DNA of 26,405 nt, from IMG/VR virus record IMGVR_UViG_3300044646_001858, positions 1 to 26,405 of that record, one strand, 5' to 3'. Within the stretch, counting starts at the first letter, position 1. Every line of letters begins with the position of its first letter. The notes below the pieces were generated by a model. It was given only the letters and a program-made list of their open reading frames with translations. It did no database searches and was not told the DNA's origin. The stretch is from a virus. This document shows positions 2,360-25,762 of this stretch, one piece after another. Both the position numbers and the translations under genes were made by a program.

Positions 2360-3256
2360 TTATACAGTAATCCAAGTTGAACCATTCCAGACCTTTAAGA
2401 CGCTGACAGATGAATCTAACCAACCGGCACCCTCGACAGAAGGAGATGGAGCGGTTGAACTGTAAGCAAAAGATCGCGAAGGGCCGGTTTCATACCAGCC
2501 GCTTGTTGTCGCGTCGTAAATAAATAGAGATCCTAATAAATTATTAAACCAAAGTTGTCCGTCTCTGGGTGGGGAATTTAAACCGGCGCCAGAAGGTGGA
2601 ACTTCACCTTTAACTGCAAATGCTTCTGCGTTTGTTTGATACCACTCGGGGTAGGCTGTGCCATTTCCACTCGCATAAACAAAGAGACGTCCTTCGGTTG
2701 TATCAAACCAGAGGCTGCCATTGCCGTATCCGGGCGCCGGATTTCCGGAGACAGTTATTGGTGTATCGCGCCCACTAATCGCTACATTTGACCCGTTGTA
2801 AGTAACCGTTGTACTACCTTCTCCGTAAGCGCCTAAATTAAACTTAGTGCCGCCGTCAGAAAGATATAAACCAGAACCAGCGGTAAACGCGACACCCGAT
2901 GTAGAAAGGACAGTGGCGTTAATAAACGCATATCGTCCACTATAAGTTACGTAAATACCTGATCCGCCTTCGACGGCGGCGTTAACAACCGTAAACGCTC
3001 CGCTTGTGGTGGTGTATATGCCAGAGCCTGCGATAACAGCGCCGCCCGAGTTAACACCACTCAGTGTCCAGTTAAGGTCCTCAATGACCTGGACCAATCC
3101 CTCAAAATTGGCGGCATATCCCGAGGGGTCGATGGTGAAAGATGCTGTTCCCACGCCGCTAATTGTGTAAATACATTCAACGAGGGCATCGACTGCCCCC
3201 CGAAAATTGGGAGTGTGAAGACTATGACGAGATGGGTAGTGACCGCACGCGGACAT
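2360..3256 (-). CDS. Tail structural protein with repeated beta modules
   Basis: This 298-residue protein begins with a possible alpha/beta head, then has three or four units of about 30 residues that carry GSGIY.T.SG.F..(I/V)NA (about residues 70-145). The C-terminal half contains three WF/WL-type modules: GSLWFDTTEGRLFVYASGN, then DGQLWFNNLLGSLFIYD, then a shorter copy ending VLKVWNGSTWITV. These last modules are common in phage fibres and baseplate-attached proteins. It is followed by the small basic gene and the decoration-like pair. Receptor-proximal tail protein is the best guess. Confidence 0.7.
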   Translation of the reverse strand: MSACGHYPSRHSLHTPNFRGAVDALVECIYTISGVGTASFTIDPSGYAANFEGLVQVIEDLNWTLSGVNSGGAVIAGSGIYTTTSGAFTVVNAAVEGGSGIYVTYSGRYAFINATVLSTSGVAFTAGSGLYLSDGGTKFNLGAYGEGSTTVTYNGSNVAISGRDTPITVSGNPAPGYGNGSLWFDTTEGRLFVYASGNGTAYPEWYQTNAEAFAVKGEVPPSGAGLNSPPRDGQLWFNNLLGSLFIYDATTSGWYETGPSRSFAYSSTAPSPSVEGAGWLDSSVSVLKVWNGSTWITV

Positions 3257-3273
3257 TAGTTTTCTTAAAAATA

Positions 3274-3636
3274 CTACCCTCCAACGTAAAGTCTAGCGCA
3301 CTCGGTTCTTTTTTCTTTGTTCAACTTAGCTGAAACCCTTTTTACAAAACTGACATTGCAGCCCAGATTTTTAGAGACCGTGTTGCAGCTGTGTCCCGCA
3401 TTCAACTGAGCGATAACTTCTTTACCTAGGAATGTCGAGAGTGCCCGTTGTTCGATACGTTTACGAATTTCAGCGTACTGACCGGCAGAAGCAAAGCTTT
3501 TTATAATCTGCTGAACCCGTTGCTTCGAAATATTGAATTTTTTACCTATTTCAGCGTAGCTCTTTCCCTCCATCAAATAATCGTAAATATCCGCAAAACG
3601 CTGTTTAGCTTCCGGCGAAGGACAAAGACGACCCAT
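3274..3636 (-). CDS. DNA-binding protein with sigma region 4-like helix-turn-helix
   Basis: This 120-residue protein has a clear helix-turn-helix at about residues 22-48: MEGKSYAEIGKKFNISKQ, then RVQQI. The pattern matches the HTH of sigma-factor region 4 and of LuxR/Trp-repressor-type proteins. A second, weaker HTH lies at about 78-105 (AGHSCNTVSKNLGCNVSFVK). It sits just inside the control region as the second gene of the leftward unit, a sensible place for a regulator of the fibre genes. No other sigma domain is present, so it is not a full sigma factor. The direction of control is unknown. Confidence 0.65.
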   Translation of the reverse strand: MGRLCPSPEAKQRFADIYDYLMEGKSYAEIGKKFNISKQRVQQIIKSFASAGQYAEIRKRIEQRALSTFLGKEVIAQLNAGHSCNTVSKNLGCNVSFVKRVSAKLNKEKRTECARLYVGG

Positions 3637-3660
3637 AATCAGCTTGAAACTGAGTCGACC

Positions 3661-3825
3661 TTACCCAGCATCTACTTTGGTGTCAACCTCACGATGCTGA
3701 TAAAACTCTTCAGCTATACGCCAAGCTGGGATATTTAACTTCATAGCCCTGCGGCGACACTCCGCCCAGAACTCCTCATCAGACAGGTCTATAGCTGCAC
3801 TTGGTTTTAAGCTTGCTGTAGGCAT
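3661..3825 (-). CDS. Small helical protein at the head of the leftward unit (54 aa)
   Basis: ATG at 3825-3823 opens a 54-residue frame; the sequence AAGGA lies about 8 bases upstream. The translation contains LSDEEFWAECRRRAMKLN and AWRIAEEFYQHREV, both good amphipathic helices, and it has balanced charge. It ends 24 bases before the HTH gene on the same strand, so the two are probably co-transcribed from the control region. No family is recognised; a small DNA-binding partner or regulator is possible. Confidence 0.6.
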   Translation of the reverse strand: MPTASLKPSAAIDLSDEEFWAECRRRAMKLNIPAWRIAEEFYQHREVDTKVDAG

Positions 3826-3886
3826 GACCCATCCTTAGAAGATGTTGTTCGTATATTACCAGATATTCCAGAAAAAGCGTAGTTTT

Positions 3887-3914
3887 GTACTGCTTGCCCT
3901 ATAGTCGACAGTAC
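3887..3914. promoter_or_regulatory. Inverted repeat GTACTG/CAGTAC, operator-like
   Basis: GTACTG at 3887-3892 is mirrored by CAGTAC at 3909-3914 with 16 bases between them. The spacer read on the minus strand contains CGACTATAGGGC. The element lies 62 bases upstream of the first leftward gene, a suitable place for an operator or promoter. No consensus -35/-10 pair overlaps it clearly. Confidence 0.35.
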
Positions 3915-3978
3915 GCAGGTTGCCACGGCTGCAAAAACCAAAACACCGTGTTCCAAAACTATCTCCAGAAGCTCGTTT

Positions 3979-4114
3979 ACTTAACGTAAATTTCGTTTTA
4001 AATCGTGCTTAGTTATATATTTTAAAATTATATTATAAGTAGTATGCTCTAACGTAAATTTCGCTGCAGTTAAATACTGTAAAACTTGCCGGTCAGGCGA
4101 AATTTACGTTAAGT
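3979..4114. promoter_or_regulatory. Three-copy TAACGTAAATTTCG repeat around an AT-rich core
   Basis: The 14-mer TAACGTAAATTTCG occurs at 3982-3995 and 4050-4063 on the plus strand and at 4098-4111 inverted. The outer copies extend to a shared 17-mer (ACTTAACGTAAATTTCG, 3979-3995 and the complement of 4098-4114). Between copies 1 and 2 is a nearly pure A/T stretch (about 4010-4037). Copies 2 and 3 can form a stem with a 34-base loop. Spaced exact sites beside a melting-prone core fit either iterons of a replication origin or operators of the early promoter. The sequence cannot decide between these. Confidence 0.6.
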
Positions 4115-10530: not shown

Positions 10531-11070
10531 ATGGTTTACTCAACTTCGAGCCCTGAAGATATTTCGGGGATGCTTCAACGGCAACCTGTTGCAGTAGAAA
10601 CAATCGAAGTTGAAACGCAAGAAAGGGTCACAGTGGAGGGACTAGCTTCTCTTCTGGTGACCCTTTCATCTGCTCTAACACATTTGTACATACAATCACA
10701 TTTAATTCATTTGAACGTTGAAGGGCCTTTATTTTTGCCCGTACACGAATTTTTAAAAGGGCAGTACGAAGCCCACGTCGATCAGCTTGATAAAACCGCC
10801 GAGTTTGTTCGCACTCTCGACGTGTTCATGCCGATGTGCGAAAAAGGACTTCTTGGAGCGTGCAAGCCTTTTAAGCATGTTAAGAGCTACGAATGTCGCG
10901 ATATGCTAATGACGTATTTAAAAAACTTAGAAGATATTGGTATGCAGGCTAAAGACGTCGGTGAGTACGCGAAAGAACTGAAAGCTCCCGATGTTGAAAA
11001 TTATATGGCCGAACTCGTGGGCGAAATGTTCAAAGCTGCTTGGTTTATCAAGAGCACTCTTCGGGGTTAA
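10531..11070 (+). CDS. Dps/ferritin-like protein
   Basis: This 179-residue protein aligns with Dps four-helix bundles (usual length about 150-190). The signature is HLIHLNVEGPLFLPVHEFLK, then DQLDKTAEFVRTL. By spacing, H60, H72, D87 and E91 match the ferroxidase ligands H51, H63, D78 and E82 of E. coli Dps. The position matching D67 is Lys76, so the iron site is incomplete. The C-terminal DVENYMAELVGEMFKAAWFIKSTL fits the last Dps helix. Dps proteins oxidise iron with peroxide, and some bind DNA. The N-terminal tail (1-38) is acidic rather than Lys-rich, so DNA binding through it is doubtful. It is co-transcribed with an HTH protein inside the virion region. Its stop codon overlaps the stop of the convergent fibre gene at TTAA. 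Confidence 0.75.
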   Translation: MVYSTSSPEDISGMLQRQPVAVETIEVETQERVTVEGLASLLVTLSSALTHLYIQSHLIHLNVEGPLFLPVHEFLKGQYEAHVDQLDKTAEFVRTLDVFMPMCEKGLLGACKPFKHVKSYECRDMLMTYLKNLEDIGMQAKDVGEYAKELKAPDVENYMAELVGEMFKAAWFIKSTLRG

Positions 11071-11804
11071 ATAAGAGCCCACGCGTCAGCCGCTCGCACG
11101 TATAATCCACTTGGAAAACTACCTGAAGTAACGGTTAAGTAAACCAAAGAACCTGACGGACTTGTGCTAGCAGCTGGAAGACCGCCAGGCAATACAGATG
11201 AAGTAACAATTGCTCCCGAAGCTGAAATAGCTCCAGAAGCCATTATTGCTCCCGAAGCTGAAATAGCTCCAGAAGCCATTATTGCTCCCGAAGCTGAAAT
11301 AGCTCCAGAAGCCATTATTGCTCCAGAAGCTGAAATAGCTCCGGATGCGGATATAGTTCCGGATGCACGAATAGCTCCAGAAGCTGTTATAGCTCCGGAT
11401 GCTAAAACAGCACCGGAAGCCATAATAGTTGAACCAGCAACAGTAGCGAAACTAGCGCTACCCGCACTCCCGGCAATAGTCGCAGAGTCAGCAAACAAGG
11501 CACCTATTTTTTGCCACGCGGATCCTGTCCAGACACGCAAGTAATATGAGCTTGTGGAGCTGTCGACCCATTGCTCCCCGACAGAATTCCCAGCAAGACC
11601 AACCGGTGAGGAGTTAGGTGCAGTTGCCCCATAATGTGAGGGACCAACTTTACGGATGTTTCCGGCAGAATCTTTTACATATAAACCTGGATCGTTTGCA
11701 CCAAAACATACTGCAGGTTCACCGGCCCCTACGGATATACCACTAGGTCTATCGGAAGAATTACCAGAACGTTTTAATAAAAGAGTAACTGGAGTAGAAG
11801 TCAT
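11067..11804 (-). CDS. Tail fibre protein with hexapeptide ASGAI repeats
   Basis: This 245-residue protein has an N-terminal module (residues 5-55, LLKRSGNSS..PSG....AGEPAV..GLYVKDSAGNIRKVGP) that resembles fibre attachment heads of T4-like and cyanophage fibres. It is followed by a YLRVWTGSAWQKIG module. Residues about 125-195 are a six-residue repeat, (S/M)ASGAI, that could wind as a beta-helix or triple-beta shaft. A short beta tip follows. It lies immediately downstream of the 512-residue structural protein. Host recognition is the likely job, inferred from architecture. Confidence 0.75.
   Translation of the reverse strand: MTSTPVTLLLKRSGNSSDRPSGISVGAGEPAVCFGANDPGLYVKDSAGNIRKVGPSHYGATAPNSSPVGLAGNSVGEQWVDSSTSSYYLRVWTGSAWQKIGALFADSATIAGSAGSASFATVAGSTIMASGAVLASGAITASGAIRASGTISASGAISASGAIMASGAISASGAIMASGAISASGAIMASGAISASGAIVTSSVLPGGLPAASTSPSGSLVYLTVTSGSFPSGLYVRAADAWALI
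11209..11352. repeat. Exact 36-bp tandem repeats in the fibre gene
   Basis: Three identical 36-bp units occupy 11209-11244, 11245-11280 and 11281-11316; a fourth (11317-11352) has a few changes. Each codes for two hexapeptides. Perfect identity at third codon positions points to recent duplication or gene conversion, unlike the older repeats of the fibre at 173-1156. There are no spacers, so this is not a CRISPR array. Confidence 0.85.
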
Positions 11805-17096: not shown

Positions 17097-17621
17097 ATGC
17101 CTGCTTTTAAATTCGCGGGAAACTTGCGTGGACTATTAAGGGCTACTCCTGGTGTCGGTGACATATTAAATACAGTTTTGGAAGCAGCTGATCAAATTCA
17201 AGCTGGAGTTCCTATACAGAGAGCTGTAACTAGAGCAATTCCTGTTGGTGCAGTTGGATTAGCTACCAATATTTATGATCCGTTGGGAGTTACTAATATG
17301 GCACCTACGGTAGTTAGATTAGCTGGAGATGTTGCTAAGCAATTAGATTTCGCAAAAAAAGCGCGATTACAAAGCCCTCCAATAACTTCAGGGAGAGATC
17401 CGAGAATTGTGAATGCTGCAGAAAATATTATGCTTCAAATGTGGCAGGATCCCCAAGAAGTTGAAAAAGCAGCAAAAGTTCTAGATAAATTTAACAGCGA
17501 AGCAGCAGCGCGTTATATTGTCGATAAAACTGATCCGTTAACAAAAGAAGGACAATTTTCCGCCGACCCTACTGAACGATTACAACAATTACAAGAATTT
17601 TTGTCCAGAACAAATAGATAA
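17097..17621 (+). CDS. Hypothetical protein on the opposite strand within the virion region
   Basis: This 174-residue protein has a Gly/Ala/Val-rich stretch (about residues 40-60, VTRAIPVGAVGLATNIY) that may be a short hydrophobic segment. Helices follow: VRLAGDVAKQLDFAKKARL, PQEVEKAAKVLDKFNSEAA. Codons are AT-rich compared with the capsid genes next door. It stands alone on the plus strand and ends two bases before a strong bidirectional terminator, so it is a single-gene insert with its own promoter. No family is recognised. A small membrane-interacting or internal virion role is possible. Confidence 0.6.
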   Translation: MPAFKFAGNLRGLLRATPGVGDILNTVLEAADQIQAGVPIQRAVTRAIPVGAVGLATNIYDPLGVTNMAPTVVRLAGDVAKQLDFAKKARLQSPPITSGRDPRIVNAAENIMLQMWQDPQEVEKAAKVLDKFNSEAAARYIVDKTDPLTKEGQFSADPTERLQQLQEFLSRTNR

Positions 17622-17622
17622 T

Positions 17623-17656
17623 AAAAAAGCCCCTCCGAAGAGGGGCCTTTATTTTT
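17623..17656. terminator. Bidirectional rho-independent terminator
   Basis: GCCCCTC (17629-17635) pairs perfectly with GAGGGGC (17640-17646), giving a 7-bp G+C stem. On the minus strand the loop is the very stable C(UUCG)G and the stem is followed directly by TTTTTT. On the plus strand the stem is followed by CTTTATTTTT. It can end both the rightward gene at 17097-17621 and the leftward capsid unit ending at 17667. Confidence 0.9.
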
Positions 17657-18559: not shown

Positions 18560-19609
18560 TCAAGCGTTGAATGAGTAGGCAATGGTGGCGAAGTCAGCGT
18601 TCAGGAGTTCGAAACCTGCGTACAGGCTCCAAATCATCATGATGAAACGGCTGAAATCGTCATTGTTGTTGAGCAGCACTTGGGCGTTGTTACCGCCGAT
18701 GCCGACACCAACAGACTGCGGACCGAAGAACATACCGATAGCAGACTCGTACGAAGACGAAGTACCGCCGATGGTCGCAGTTTGGCTCTGCGAAGGCATG
18801 TTGGTCGATTCGAAGAAGCGAACACCTTCGAACACGAAACCGGTCGGCATGATCGGCTCACCGGCCACGAAGGTGGCTTGGCCGAAGCCCTGACCCATGT
18901 AGATGGCAGCGTTGGGCTGCATCGAGGACATCAGGGGGTTGATCTGCCCATTGCCGGGATAACGAGCAACTTCACGGAAGTCGCTGTTCTGGCGCAGGTG
19001 CATCAGGAAAGTAGGATCGCAAACGCAGCGATAGAAACCATCCTGGTAGGTAGGAGTGTTCCGCTTACGCAGGCTCTTCACCACGCGCAGCAGGTCATCC
19101 TTAACGTCGAACTTAGCTTGCTCGGCGTTGGCGTAGGTGAGGCTACCGACGGCGAGATCACCGGGGTAGTAGTAACCGCCTTGGCTGTCAGAAGACTGAC
19201 CCTTGGAAACAGCTTTCAGGAGTTCGTTGATGAACACCCGATCACGCCAACGACGATAGTCGTCGAGCAGAGTCAGGGAGCCGATCGACTGGTGGAAAGC
19301 GGTAAGGTTACCGGTATCCAACAAGAGGCGTTGAGCAGTAATAAGGGTTTCGCGAGCAATCTTAAAGGTGCTCGGCTGAGTGGGATCGGAAGGGTCCGCA
19401 GGACCGGTGTACTCACGAAGAGTAACCAGTACTTTGTCCTTCACAATGTTTCTGCTGTTGGCAGTACCGATGGTCTGCTCAGCAGTGCGCTCCCGAGACT
19501 CCTTAGAGCCAGGGTTGCCCCAGAAACGATAACGGTCAAGCTGAACGGTCTGGCCGGGTTGTTTGGAAAAGTCGTGAACAACACGTGTTAGGATTTGCGG
19601 GTTCAAATC
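18560..19609 (-). CDS. Major capsid protein, exon 2
   Basis: This 349-residue segment starts DLNPQILTRVVHDFSKQPGQ, continues TVQLDRYRFWG and RETLITAQRLLLDTGNL, and later has VKSLRKRNTPTYQDGFYRC, HLRQNSDFREVARYPG and GFVFEGVRFFEST. This ordered set resembles N4 gp56-like, HK97-fold major capsid proteins. An apparent GTG at 19612 could open it, but no Shine-Dalgarno site precedes that codon. Group I intron core elements end just upstream, and exon 1 at 20710-20802 supplies the missing N-terminus. Joined, the protein has about 380 residues. High G+C and codon choice suit strong expression. The structural family is inferred from pattern. Confidence 0.75.
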   Translation of the reverse strand, partial: DLNPQILTRVVHDFSKQPGQTVQLDRYRFWGNPGSKESRERTAEQTIGTANSRNIVKDKVLVTLREYTGPADPSDPTQPSTFKIARETLITAQRLLLDTGNLTAFHQSIGSLTLLDDYRRWRDRVFINELLKAVSKGQSSDSQGGYYYPGDLAVGSLTYANAEQAKFDVKDDLLRVVKSLRKRNTPTYQDGFYRCVCDPTFLMHLRQNSDFREVARYPGNGQINPLMSSMQPNAAIYMGQGFGQATFVAGEPIMPTGFVFEGVRFFESTNMPSQSQTATIGGTSSSYESAIGMFFGPQSVGVGIGGNNAQVLLNNNDDFSRFIMMIWSLYAGFELLNADFATIAYSFNA

Positions 19610-20709
19610 CACTCTCTGAGTTTTTCATCCTCAGAGCACTGACTATATCTTGCTCCCAAAATGACTCGTTACAATCGTTTTTCTCCCGACCCTGCTGTTA
19701 TTCGAGAGTTGGCATCAAAAATGCCAGATGTCGAAGCAGCAAAAATTCTAGGAGTAACAATGGTGACGTTCTATAAAGCTAGAAAGCAATTAGGTATTCC
19801 ATCTTATTTTGAGCAAACAGGTAAACGAATAAGAAAATCAGGAGAAACTTACTCTTTTATGAGTTATGATGACCGGTATTTTAAGGTCATCGATTCACCT
19901 GATAAAGCTTATTTTTTAGGTTTGCTGGCATCAGATGGAAACATAAGTCCTAGATTAACGGCTGTACGAATTGCTTTAAAAGAAGAAGATAGTCTAATTT
20001 TAGAGCAATTTAGAAAGTTTTTAGGTGAAGATGCACCTGAACTTAAAACTAAGACTTCTAAGATAAATGGGAAGCTTAGTGCTCCTCAAAAAGTCTTAGT
20101 TCTTAGTAAAAAATCCATGGTAGAAGACTTGTTGAAATTAGGAATAACTCCAAACAAATCACACACCTTAAAACTTCTTTGTGACCTCCGTGAATTTAAA
20201 AAGGACTTCCTCAGAGGCGTGTGGGACGGCGACGGATCCATAACAGAACGACGCTTTAAAGTAACCACTGCTTCTGAAGAATTTGCCAACCAACTTCAAA
20301 CTTGGATTCTCGATGTAAGTGCAGTCAAACTCCTTATAAAAAAGGAAACTACACAACGTGGAAAACAATTGTTTAATCTTCCAGGTTACATCAGGGACGC
20401 TAAAGCAATTAGAGCTATTTACGGAGAATCTAAGTTAGGTATTGAACGTAAATTAAAAAATTACGAACAATACTGGGAGCCCCGGCGCTAGTGGACTTCA
20501 TAATCCGGTCTGGATCGTATGTCCTAGTCGATGAACCTTCCACTCATTCCTGAGAGGCTTGGCTGCTGATTGCCCCAGAATCCAAACTTTTTAACCGTTC
20601 ACGCTTACTGTCACCAGTTACGTTGTAGGGTTTGGATCTTTTAAGAAGGGTTTCCAGCAATTCACCGGGTTGTCACTTTCTGATTACTCAGAAAGGCGGC
20701 TGGGTTGTC
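19610..20709 (-). ncRNA. Group I intron in the major capsid gene
   Basis: Read on the minus strand, the classical core elements occur in order. They are P (GTGAATTGCTGGAAACC, 20649-20665), Q (GGCAATCAGCAGCCAAGC, 20557-20574), R (GGTTCATCGACTAGG, 20523-20537) and S (AAGATATAGTCAGTG, 19637-19651). P4 pairs TGCTG with CAGCA; P7 pairs GACTA (R) with TAGTC (S). Hairpins fit P2 (CTTTCTGA-GTAA-TCAGAAAG, 20676-20695), P5 (ATCCAAAC/GTTTGGAT) with a GTGA-capped ACTG/CAGT stem inside, and P9 (CTCTGAG/CTCAGAG, 19614-19636). A small GGA/TCC hairpin after R suggests subgroup IA. The 3' end at G19610 and the 5' end after T20710 are placed by reading frame; each could be off by a few bases. Confidence 0.85.
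19661..20491 (+). CDS. LAGLIDADG homing endonuclease, antisense within the intron
   Basis: This 276-residue protein has two LAGLIDADG helices: FLGLLASDG at residues 85-93 and FLRGVWDGDG at 183-192. Each carries the acidic catalytic residue (D92; D189/D191), so one chain can cut DNA as a pseudodimer. An N-terminal HTH (about 20-45, MPDVEAAKILGVTMVTFYKA) may help DNA recognition. The gene lies between the R and S intron elements, in the P8 loop region, but on the strand opposite to the intron. It must therefore be read from its own promoter, and no good Shine-Dalgarno site precedes the ATG. AT-rich codons unlike the capsid exons support mobile origin. Its expected target is the intron-free capsid gene. 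Confidence 0.85.
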   Translation: MTRYNRFSPDPAVIRELASKMPDVEAAKILGVTMVTFYKARKQLGIPSYFEQTGKRIRKSGETYSFMSYDDRYFKVIDSPDKAYFLGLLASDGNISPRLTAVRIALKEEDSLILEQFRKFLGEDAPELKTKTSKINGKLSAPQKVLVLSKKSMVEDLLKLGITPNKSHTLKLLCDLREFKKDFLRGVWDGDGSITERRFKVTTASEEFANQLQTWILDVSAVKLLIKKETTQRGKQLFNLPGYIRDAKAIRAIYGESKLGIERKLKNYEQYWEPRR

Positions 20710-20802
20710 AACCGGTTCTGCAGCCATCTCTACAACATACGCGGGATGCGGACGGTAGAGCTCTGCACCGAGCAGCTTCGGAAAATCATTGTCGACGAAC
20801 AA
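20710..20802 (-). CDS. Major capsid protein, exon 1
   Basis: A TTG start at 20802-20800, preceded by GGAGG with 8-base spacing (20815-20811), opens 31 codons: MFVDNDFPKLLGAELYRPHP, then AYVVEMAAEPV. The frame continues into the intron and stops at TGA after about 19 more codons. Joining GTT (20712-20710) to GAT (19609-19607) gives MAAEPV-DLNPQILTRVV in frame with the capsid body. The Pro- and Tyr-rich start fits an N-terminal capsid arm. No ATG is available in this frame, so TTG is the start. Confidence 0.75.
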
Positions 20803-24786: not shown

Positions 24787-24927
24787 TTAGCCTTTTTGCT
24801 CCATTTTGCGCTTCATTTTAGCTTTTTTAGCTTTGTGAAGGGCTTCTTTGTGCTTTTCTTTTTTGTCTTCTGAAGCGTTTTTCTCCTCAAAATGCTTACG
24901 GAGACCTTCAGGCATACGATCAGCCAT
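24787..24927 (-). CDS. Small very basic protein (46 aa)
   Basis: ATG at 24927 overlaps the stop of the glycosyltransferase gene (ATGGCTGA). The 46 codons give MADRMPEGLRKHFEEKNASE followed by a Lys/Ala/His-rich helix (KEALHKAKKAKMKRKMEQ). RMPEGLRKHF.EK is a pattern I associate with other short proteins in phage head regions. The basic helix may bind nucleic acid. It fills the gap before the portal gene. Confidence 0.65.
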   Translation of the reverse strand: MADRMPEGLRKHFEEKNASEDKKEKHKEALHKAKKAKMKRKMEQKG

Positions 24928-25762
24928 TTGGAAGCAAATACTCTCTTACACGATCTATCTTAAACAATTCTGGAGGCAAAAGATCATGCGAATACGGAAC
25001 TAAAACGTGATCTTTACGCCCTAACGGGTCAGTCCCACCGGCTTCTGGTTGATATTGCTCGATAAAATCAAGCATTTCCTGGCTATAGGCGGGTGCTACA
25101 GCATTAGGGATGTCGTCATAGCAGTGAGAGAACGATGTTACCTTACGTTTTTTACGATTTGCATCCCCCATCCATGAAAAATGCCACCCTGCATCGCAGT
25201 CACCAACGATATAGTCGTTTGGATTGCAACGAATTTGTGAAAGAGTCTGCTCCAGATGCTCGTGGAGCACAACTGTTCCGCAAGTCCAATTTGTCGGAGG
25301 TTTAGAGGAATCCTGTTCGGGATCAACAACCCTCAAATCCGCACGTCCATAAAACATAGGCATAGACAGTCGGATACAACGCTCGGGATTTGCTGTTGCA
25401 AGTTCGACTGCCTCTAACAAAGCTGAAGGTTTTGGAATCTCGTCTACGTCACTAAAGAAGAAAACAGAATCCGGAGGCGTCATCCGCATACCCACAGCAA
25501 GTGCATCGCGTTGGGCGTATTCCCGCATCCAAGGATTAAACACTTCTTCGGGAGAAGGTAGTTCCACATGGAGAACCTGAAGTTTATCTTCAGGCAAACC
25601 AAGCTCACGAATTGTATCTACGCACGTAAAAGGCTTAGGATCGCCCTTAAATGTTCTGTTTGCATCAGTAATAATAAAACCGTCTACAACGTCTTTGAGG
25701 ATGTTGTAGCGAAGCTCTAACAGCTCTTTTTCGTCAAAATAAAGAAAGCAATCAAAGAGCAC
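24920..25762 (-). CDS. Glycosyltransferase family 17 (GnT-III-like)
   Basis: This 280-residue protein matches family GT17. It has MLFDCFLYFDEKELLELR at the start (known in this family as FDCF...E...L..R), WMREYAQRDAL near residue 78, FFFSDVDEIPKP at 100-111 with the DxD-type metal/nucleotide site, and GWHFSWMG near 192. GT17 enzymes transfer N-acetylglucosamine to glycans; related phage and bacterial proteins act on other sugars. The gene lies between small virion-region genes next to the portal. It may modify virion proteins or the host surface. Substrate is unknown. It overlaps the next small gene by eight bases. Confidence 0.85.
   Translation of the reverse strand: MLFDCFLYFDEKELLELRYNILKDVVDGFIITDANRTFKGDPKPFTCVDTIRELGLPEDKLQVLHVELPSPEEVFNPWMREYAQRDALAVGMRMTPPDSVFFFSDVDEIPKPSALLEAVELATANPERCIRLSMPMFYGRADLRVVDPEQDSSKPPTNWTCGTVVLHEHLEQTLSQIRCNPNDYIVGDCDAGWHFSWMGDANRKKRKVTSFSHCYDDIPNAVAPAYSQEMLDFIEQYQPEAGGTDPLGRKDHVLVPYSHDLLPPELFKIDRVREYLLPNG

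Follow-up and report, generated by a model that had tools for sequence, protein, structure and literature searches.

How does a phage express an endonuclease gene when the opposite strand carries a late gene that is strongly transcribed? This question is raised by the window analyzed herein, the whole stretch of 26,405 nucleotides from an S-EIV1-like freshwater cyanophage, in which the major capsid gene on the minus strand is interrupted by an intron. The first-pass annotation had described a group I intron in the major capsid gene, and this assignment was borne out by a match to the Rfam model RF00028, by intron-free alleles, by the placement of the host gene in PHROG 1357, and by conserved base pairs. 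Taken as a whole, the locus very probably represents a mobile IA-like group I intron in an S-EIV1-like cyanophage capsid gene, carrying an antisense homing endonuclease gene within its P8 loop.

The host gene consists of two exons on the minus strand. Exon 1 (20711..20802; 92 nt) starts with TTG at 20802, preceded by GGAGG, and encodes LFVDNDFPKLLGAELYRPHPAYVVEMAAEP followed by GT; exon 2 is in the same frame once the intron is removed, and intron-free homologues run straight on at this point. Exon 2 (18560..19583), which reads T + GTT GTT CAC GAC and continues to the stop codon, encodes 340 residues that matched the major head protein family PHROG 1357 (E = 1.9e-22), and the capsid protein showed 67% identity to the equivalent protein region of Synechococcus phage S-EIV1. 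In the S-EIV1 genome itself (L002, KJ410740.1), the annotation of the major capsid region at 2833-4059, with a hypothetical ORF on the minus strand and a truncated one on the plus strand, looks wrong. The AlphaFold2 model of exon 2 (pLDDT 28.8) was too poor for a structure search. Elsewhere in the window, genes for a ferritin/Dps-like protein (10531-11067, plus strand; PF00210, E = 1.4e-11) and a family 17 glycosyltransferase (24923-25762, minus strand; PF04724, E = 2.2e-16) were found, together with genes for proteins with runs of short repeats (173-1156 and 11067-11804, both minus strand; ALASGNAA..., GAISASGAIMASGAI...), which are perhaps virion fibre proteins.

Alignment with uninterrupted capsid homologues, which had been proposed as a check at first pass, delimited the intron. 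Among the intron-free loci having both exons in reach, exactly one GTN codon separated the exon-1 and exon-2 frames in 139 of 139, and the boundaries are thus fixed at 20710..19584 (minus strand; 1,127 nt), the intron starting after ...CCGGU, at the U.G pair of P1, and ending with the omega-G at 19584. The splice sites read CCGGU^UGACAACCCAGCCG on the 5' side and ...GUG/CAC G^UGUUGU on the 3' side, with exon 1 ending in ...GCAGAACCGGT and exon 2 beginning with TGTTGTTCACGAC; joining of the exons yields EPVVVHDF, which matches the intron-free homologues and restores the host reading frame. The limits assigned earlier (20709..19610) were off by one base at the 5' end and 26 nt short at the 3' end, and therefore the nine codons formerly counted as the start of exon 2 (DLNPQILTR) belong to the intron, where they make up the P9.1 hairpin, the 3' strand of P9.0, and the terminal omega-G. 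A 3' splice site at 19610/19609 was hence rejected, since it would leave these nine extra codons, which are missing from all the intron-free homologues, in the message.

The exact joined-exon sequence of the intron-bearing alleles occurred once in all the viral contigs, in L103/L184 (same record; 2,042 nt), which showed no difference from L089 across 1,113 exon bases. The start of this contig lies approximately 10 bases upstream of the capsid start codon, and its end falls approximately 4 bases short of the intrinsic terminator that follows the next gene. To judge from its ends and junction, it has the appearance of a bicistronic mRNA that had been spliced and was assembled from metatranscriptome data, or it may represent a precise intron loss in DNA.

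A covariance-model search of the minus strand, likewise suggested at first pass, was positive in part. The Rfam search of the window gave no match at the curated threshold, which is 50 bits for RF00028 (Intron_gpI). When a 1.2-kb stretch was searched alone, RF00028 scored 43.7 bits (E = 1.4e-9) at 20669..20481 (minus strand), a match that extends from P3 to the 5' strand of P7; it remains below 50 bits and stops early because the endonuclease gene splits the core. A sister intron lacking the endonuclease gene (L176) matched the full model with 58.8 bits (E = 6.3e-14), which is above the curated threshold.

The P, Q, R, and S elements and the P2, P4, P5, P7, and P9 pairings were found in the order originally reported on the minus strand. 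In P1 (20697..20714; this and all the following RNA elements on the minus strand), exon CGGU and intron UG pair with CAGCCG, placing a U.G wobble at the 5' splice site, and the loop ACAACC holds the P10 partner, in that ACAAC can pair with GUUGU of exon 2. The P2 hairpin (20676..20695; 8 bp) is followed by the 5' strand of P3 (CCCGGU, 20664..20669; partner 20486..20481) and by the P4-P5 domain (20564..20659), in which P4 is formed by 20659-20654/20569-20564 and P5 by 20650-20648/20575-20573, P5 being prolonged by an extension (20637-20630/20587-20580) and an inner GNRA hairpin (20618-20607). P6/P6a (20536..20562) and the 5' strand of P7 (GACUA in R, 20525..20529; partner UAGUC in S, 19645..19641) come next. 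The P7.1/P7.2 stem-loops (20493..20524; GGAC/GUCC and GAUCC/GGAUU), located between the 5' strand of P7 and the 3' strand of P3, were paired in all of the six distinct introns compared, with one G-U variant. Such P7.1/P7.2 stem-loops are a mark of subgroup IA in the established classification, and by its sequence the intron is an IA-like group I intron. The antisense gene extends with its last codons across the 3' strand of P3 (20486-20481) and the 5' strand of P8 (20480-20475), together 20475..20486; at its other end, in the window as in all relatives, a few nucleotides separate its ATG from the 3' strand of P8 (GGGAGC, 19652..19657). The P9 hairpin (19614..19636; 7 bp) and the P9.1 hairpin with the 3' strand of P9.0 (19585..19610; CAC pairing with GUG at 19639-19637 and adjoining the omega-G) complete the fold.

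All the 79 drawn pairs were standard in the six distinct introns (474 cells), and nine of them had changed on both sides in a compensatory manner (one in P2, three in the P5 extension, two in the inner P5 hairpin, and three in P9). When the partners were slid by 1-3 columns as a control, 31-44% of the positions paired and at most one pair had changed on both sides. The core helices P3, P4, P6 (with P6a), P7, and P8 were invariant, so that covariation tests the peripheral helices only and the support for the catalytic helices comes from the Rfam model. The sub-threshold score of the window (43.7 bits) might be taken to mean that the insert is not spliced at all, being either a broken capsid gene or a sequencing or assembly artefact. 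However, the same site was occupied in 11 contigs from separate records, the structure was kept with compensatory changes, the endonuclease-free form scored above the threshold, and capsid exon 2 was still under strong selection (dN approximately 0.01-0.05), all of which argue for a spliced intron and make an unspliced insert extremely improbable.

The antisense gene (19661..20491, plus strand) encodes a LAGLIDADG homing endonuclease of 276 amino acids followed by a stop codon, with the motifs YFLGLLASDG and FLRGVWDGDG and a weak N-terminal HTH. The protein matched PF14528 with 44.4 bits (cut-off 22.5; E = 2.1e-11) and PHROG 4645 with E = 4.7e-39, and its sequence profile also matched the PDB chains 7qsu/7qss (named V-ATPase; E = 3-4e-5); no relatives were found in a scan of genome contigs, and the AlphaFold2 model was of low confidence (pLDDT 51.8) and too poor for a structure search. 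The two-motif gene that the first-pass annotation had placed on the plus strand between R and S is thus real, but its position is nearer the core than this description implied, in that it fills the P8 loop and its last codons (EPRR and the stop) cross the 5' strand of P8 and the 3' strand of P3. In 11 contigs the gene was intact and of the same length, with both motifs kept. Between diverged copies, for which dS reached approximately 1.1, dN/dS was approximately 0.11-0.29, and comparison of the window with L079 revealed 42, 31, and 110 differences at codon positions 1, 2, and 3, respectively, the third positions carrying most of them. Purifying selection and intact frames in 11 contigs therefore point to a real, selected gene opposite the capsid strand, in keeping with the earlier proposal of a functional antisense endonuclease.

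Comparison of alleles revealed both loss of this gene and a second intron. In L176, L180, L195, and L178 (the last cut at its 5' end), the site-1 intron was kept and the endonuclease gene had been deleted in frame to MPRFER-YWEPRR, with P8 intact. A second group I intron was located approximately 15 nt downstream of site 1 (apparently with a two-base shift in some contigs), both in these four double contigs, where an exon of approximately 15 nt separates the two introns, and in 13 contigs without the site-1 intron (L045, L052, L055, L057, L072, L074-L077, L080-L082, and L179). This site-2 intron (995 nt) resembles the site-1 intron in that it interrupts the same capsid gene, is also of group I, and also bears a LAGLIDADG gene; in contrast, its gene is in the sense orientation, lies between P7 and the 3' strand of P3, and belongs to another LAGLIDADG family (LAGLIDADG_2, PF03161). 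No contig had both endonucleases intact, which is taken as an observation only because the double alleles constitute one lineage.

The distribution and divergence of the site-1 intron spoke for its horizontal spread. On the tree of the distal capsid exon, the intron required at least seven gains or losses, and a single clade of its carriers was rejected on the capsid tree (p-AU 1.8e-25). In the diverged lineages L017, L079, L087, and L089, endonuclease dS was 0.16-0.30 versus 0.50-1.00 for the capsid exon, and thus the intron is younger than the split of its hosts. Furthermore, the window differed from its closest intron-free relative, L008, at 25 of 1,113 exon positions, and 11 of these 25 lay no more than 40 bp from the site (p = 9e-11; the near-copies of the window were counted together with it as a single event), whereas the share near the site in control pairs of intron-free alleles (n = 113) averaged 4% and reached 17% at most. 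Read from these alignments, the clustered differences at the insertion site are a co-conversion footprint, which is consistent with cleavage of an intron-free allele by the endonuclease. The patchy tree, the lower dS of the endonuclease relative to its host gene, and the co-conversion tract supported the initial suggestion that the intron spreads among related capsid genes. These results also bear on the possibility that the intron splices while the antisense ORF is a relic or a chance ORF, the intron being no longer mobile in this lineage. Neither a promoter nor a Shine-Dalgarno sequence was found for the ORF, and a sister lineage retains the intron although the gene is gone, as might be expected of a relic; strong purifying selection, the excess of third-position differences, the retention of both motifs at equal length in 11 contigs, and the recent spread between diverged capsid genes nevertheless render this possibility very unlikely.

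We accordingly consider a mobile intron the best description of the locus, and propose that its cycle would proceed as follows. The intron RNA, transcribed within the capsid transcript, would fold and self-splice, with the P1 U.G pair, omega-G, P9.0, and P10 all being present, and would thereby restore the uninterrupted 371-residue capsid protein; splicing in vivo, which we infer, has its counterpart in one mRNA-like contig. When a relative co-infects the cell, the endonuclease would most likely cleave the intron-free capsid allele of that relative close to the insertion site (CCGGT^TGTTGT and variants), both its activity and the exact cut being presumed here, and repair of the break would transfer the intron, along with approximately 10-30 bp of exon on its flanks, to the recipient. 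In this scheme, the intron, its boundaries and structure, the intact selected gene, the horizontal spread, and the co-conversion tract are shown by the sequence comparisons.

The expression of the endonuclease was less readily accounted for. The idea of the first-pass annotation that it is made independently of capsid transcription, perhaps early, found no backing: no plus-strand promoter above chance was detected near its start, a Shine-Dalgarno sequence was lacking, and a strong bidirectional terminator (17625-17650), situated between the capsid operon and the convergent plus-strand gene at 17097-17621, insulates the endonuclease gene from this only plus-strand gene nearby, which had no match in PHROG. 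Read-through from that gene was hence judged unlikely. Because the endonuclease gene fills P8, its transcript and that of the capsid gene necessarily overlap in the 3' half of the ribozyme, and where HEGs lie antisense in rDNA, interference of this kind has been recognised as a concern (PMC9548176). The arrangement might thus be a regulatory device, in which base pairing of the capsid pre-mRNA (at P7, P8, P9, and the 3' splice site) with the endonuclease transcript delays splicing, or strong late transcription of the capsid gene shuts off the endonuclease; nevertheless, the intron persists without the gene in L176/L180/L195/L178, and we regard such a device as unlikely. It is likewise rather doubtful, though conceivable, that endonuclease expression is tied to capsid splicing by the antisense placement and that, together with the sense endonuclease of site 2, the capsid gene has become a battleground of two homing systems for one target. 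Given the complementarity of both RNAs in the 3' half of the ribozyme, transcription of the plus strand would then yield the endonuclease and at the same time impede capsid splicing, and, if this coupling holds, late capsid transcription would silence the endonuclease.

An antisense LAGLIDADG gene in a phage capsid intron is already known from mycobacteriophage LittleE (2013), in which a group I-like intron in capsid gene 13 harbors the antisense gene 14 and splicing was demonstrated by RT-PCR (PMC3706429). The earlier statement that antisense endonucleases are uncommon fits a small sample of annotated phage introns of related core, in which the inner ORF was sense in five of five, but has to be qualified by this precedent. 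Both systems combine a phage major capsid gene with an antisense LAGLIDADG ORF of PF14528, an exon ending in U, and an intron ending in G; they differ in phage group and insertion site, and the LittleE gene lies after S, outside the core, whereas that of the window lies inside the P8 loop and overlaps P8/P3. BLASTP detected no similarity between the two endonucleases, and the LittleE enzyme was therefore rejected as a homologue. What is unusual here is the placement of the endonuclease gene inside P8 and the unusually complete natural series.

Mobile group I introns with an endonuclease gene opposite the ribozyme strand have also been described in myxomycete nuclear rDNA (Dsq.L2066 and Dir.S956-2), where the expression of the antisense HEGs was called an unsolved question (PMC9548176); in contrast to the present case, their host is eukaryotic rDNA, and Dsq.L2066 has a group IE core and a His-Cys endonuclease gene in P9.2 with a spliceosomal intron and polyadenylation signals. 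The td, nrdB, and nrdD introns of T4, with I-TevI/II/III, likewise belong to group I, occur in a phage, carry endonuclease genes in their peripheral loops, and home by double-strand-break repair (PMC2988022), but differ in endonuclease families, sense orientation, and host genes of nucleotide metabolism. Cyanophage Pf-WMP3 possesses a group IA2 intron with the homing endonuclease I-PfoP3I (PMC3428280), again in a freshwater cyanophage gene, although its enzyme is an HNH nicking enzyme and its host gene encodes DNA polymerase.

For this cyanophage group, the present locus implies that capsid annotations can be split or have wrong N-termini. It also provides a well-bounded natural series at one gene, comprising alleles that are empty, that carry the antisense endonuclease, from which the endonuclease has been deleted, and in which the intron is paired with a second one. 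This series makes the homing life cycle testable, from invasion and co-conversion to gene loss and competition between two introns.
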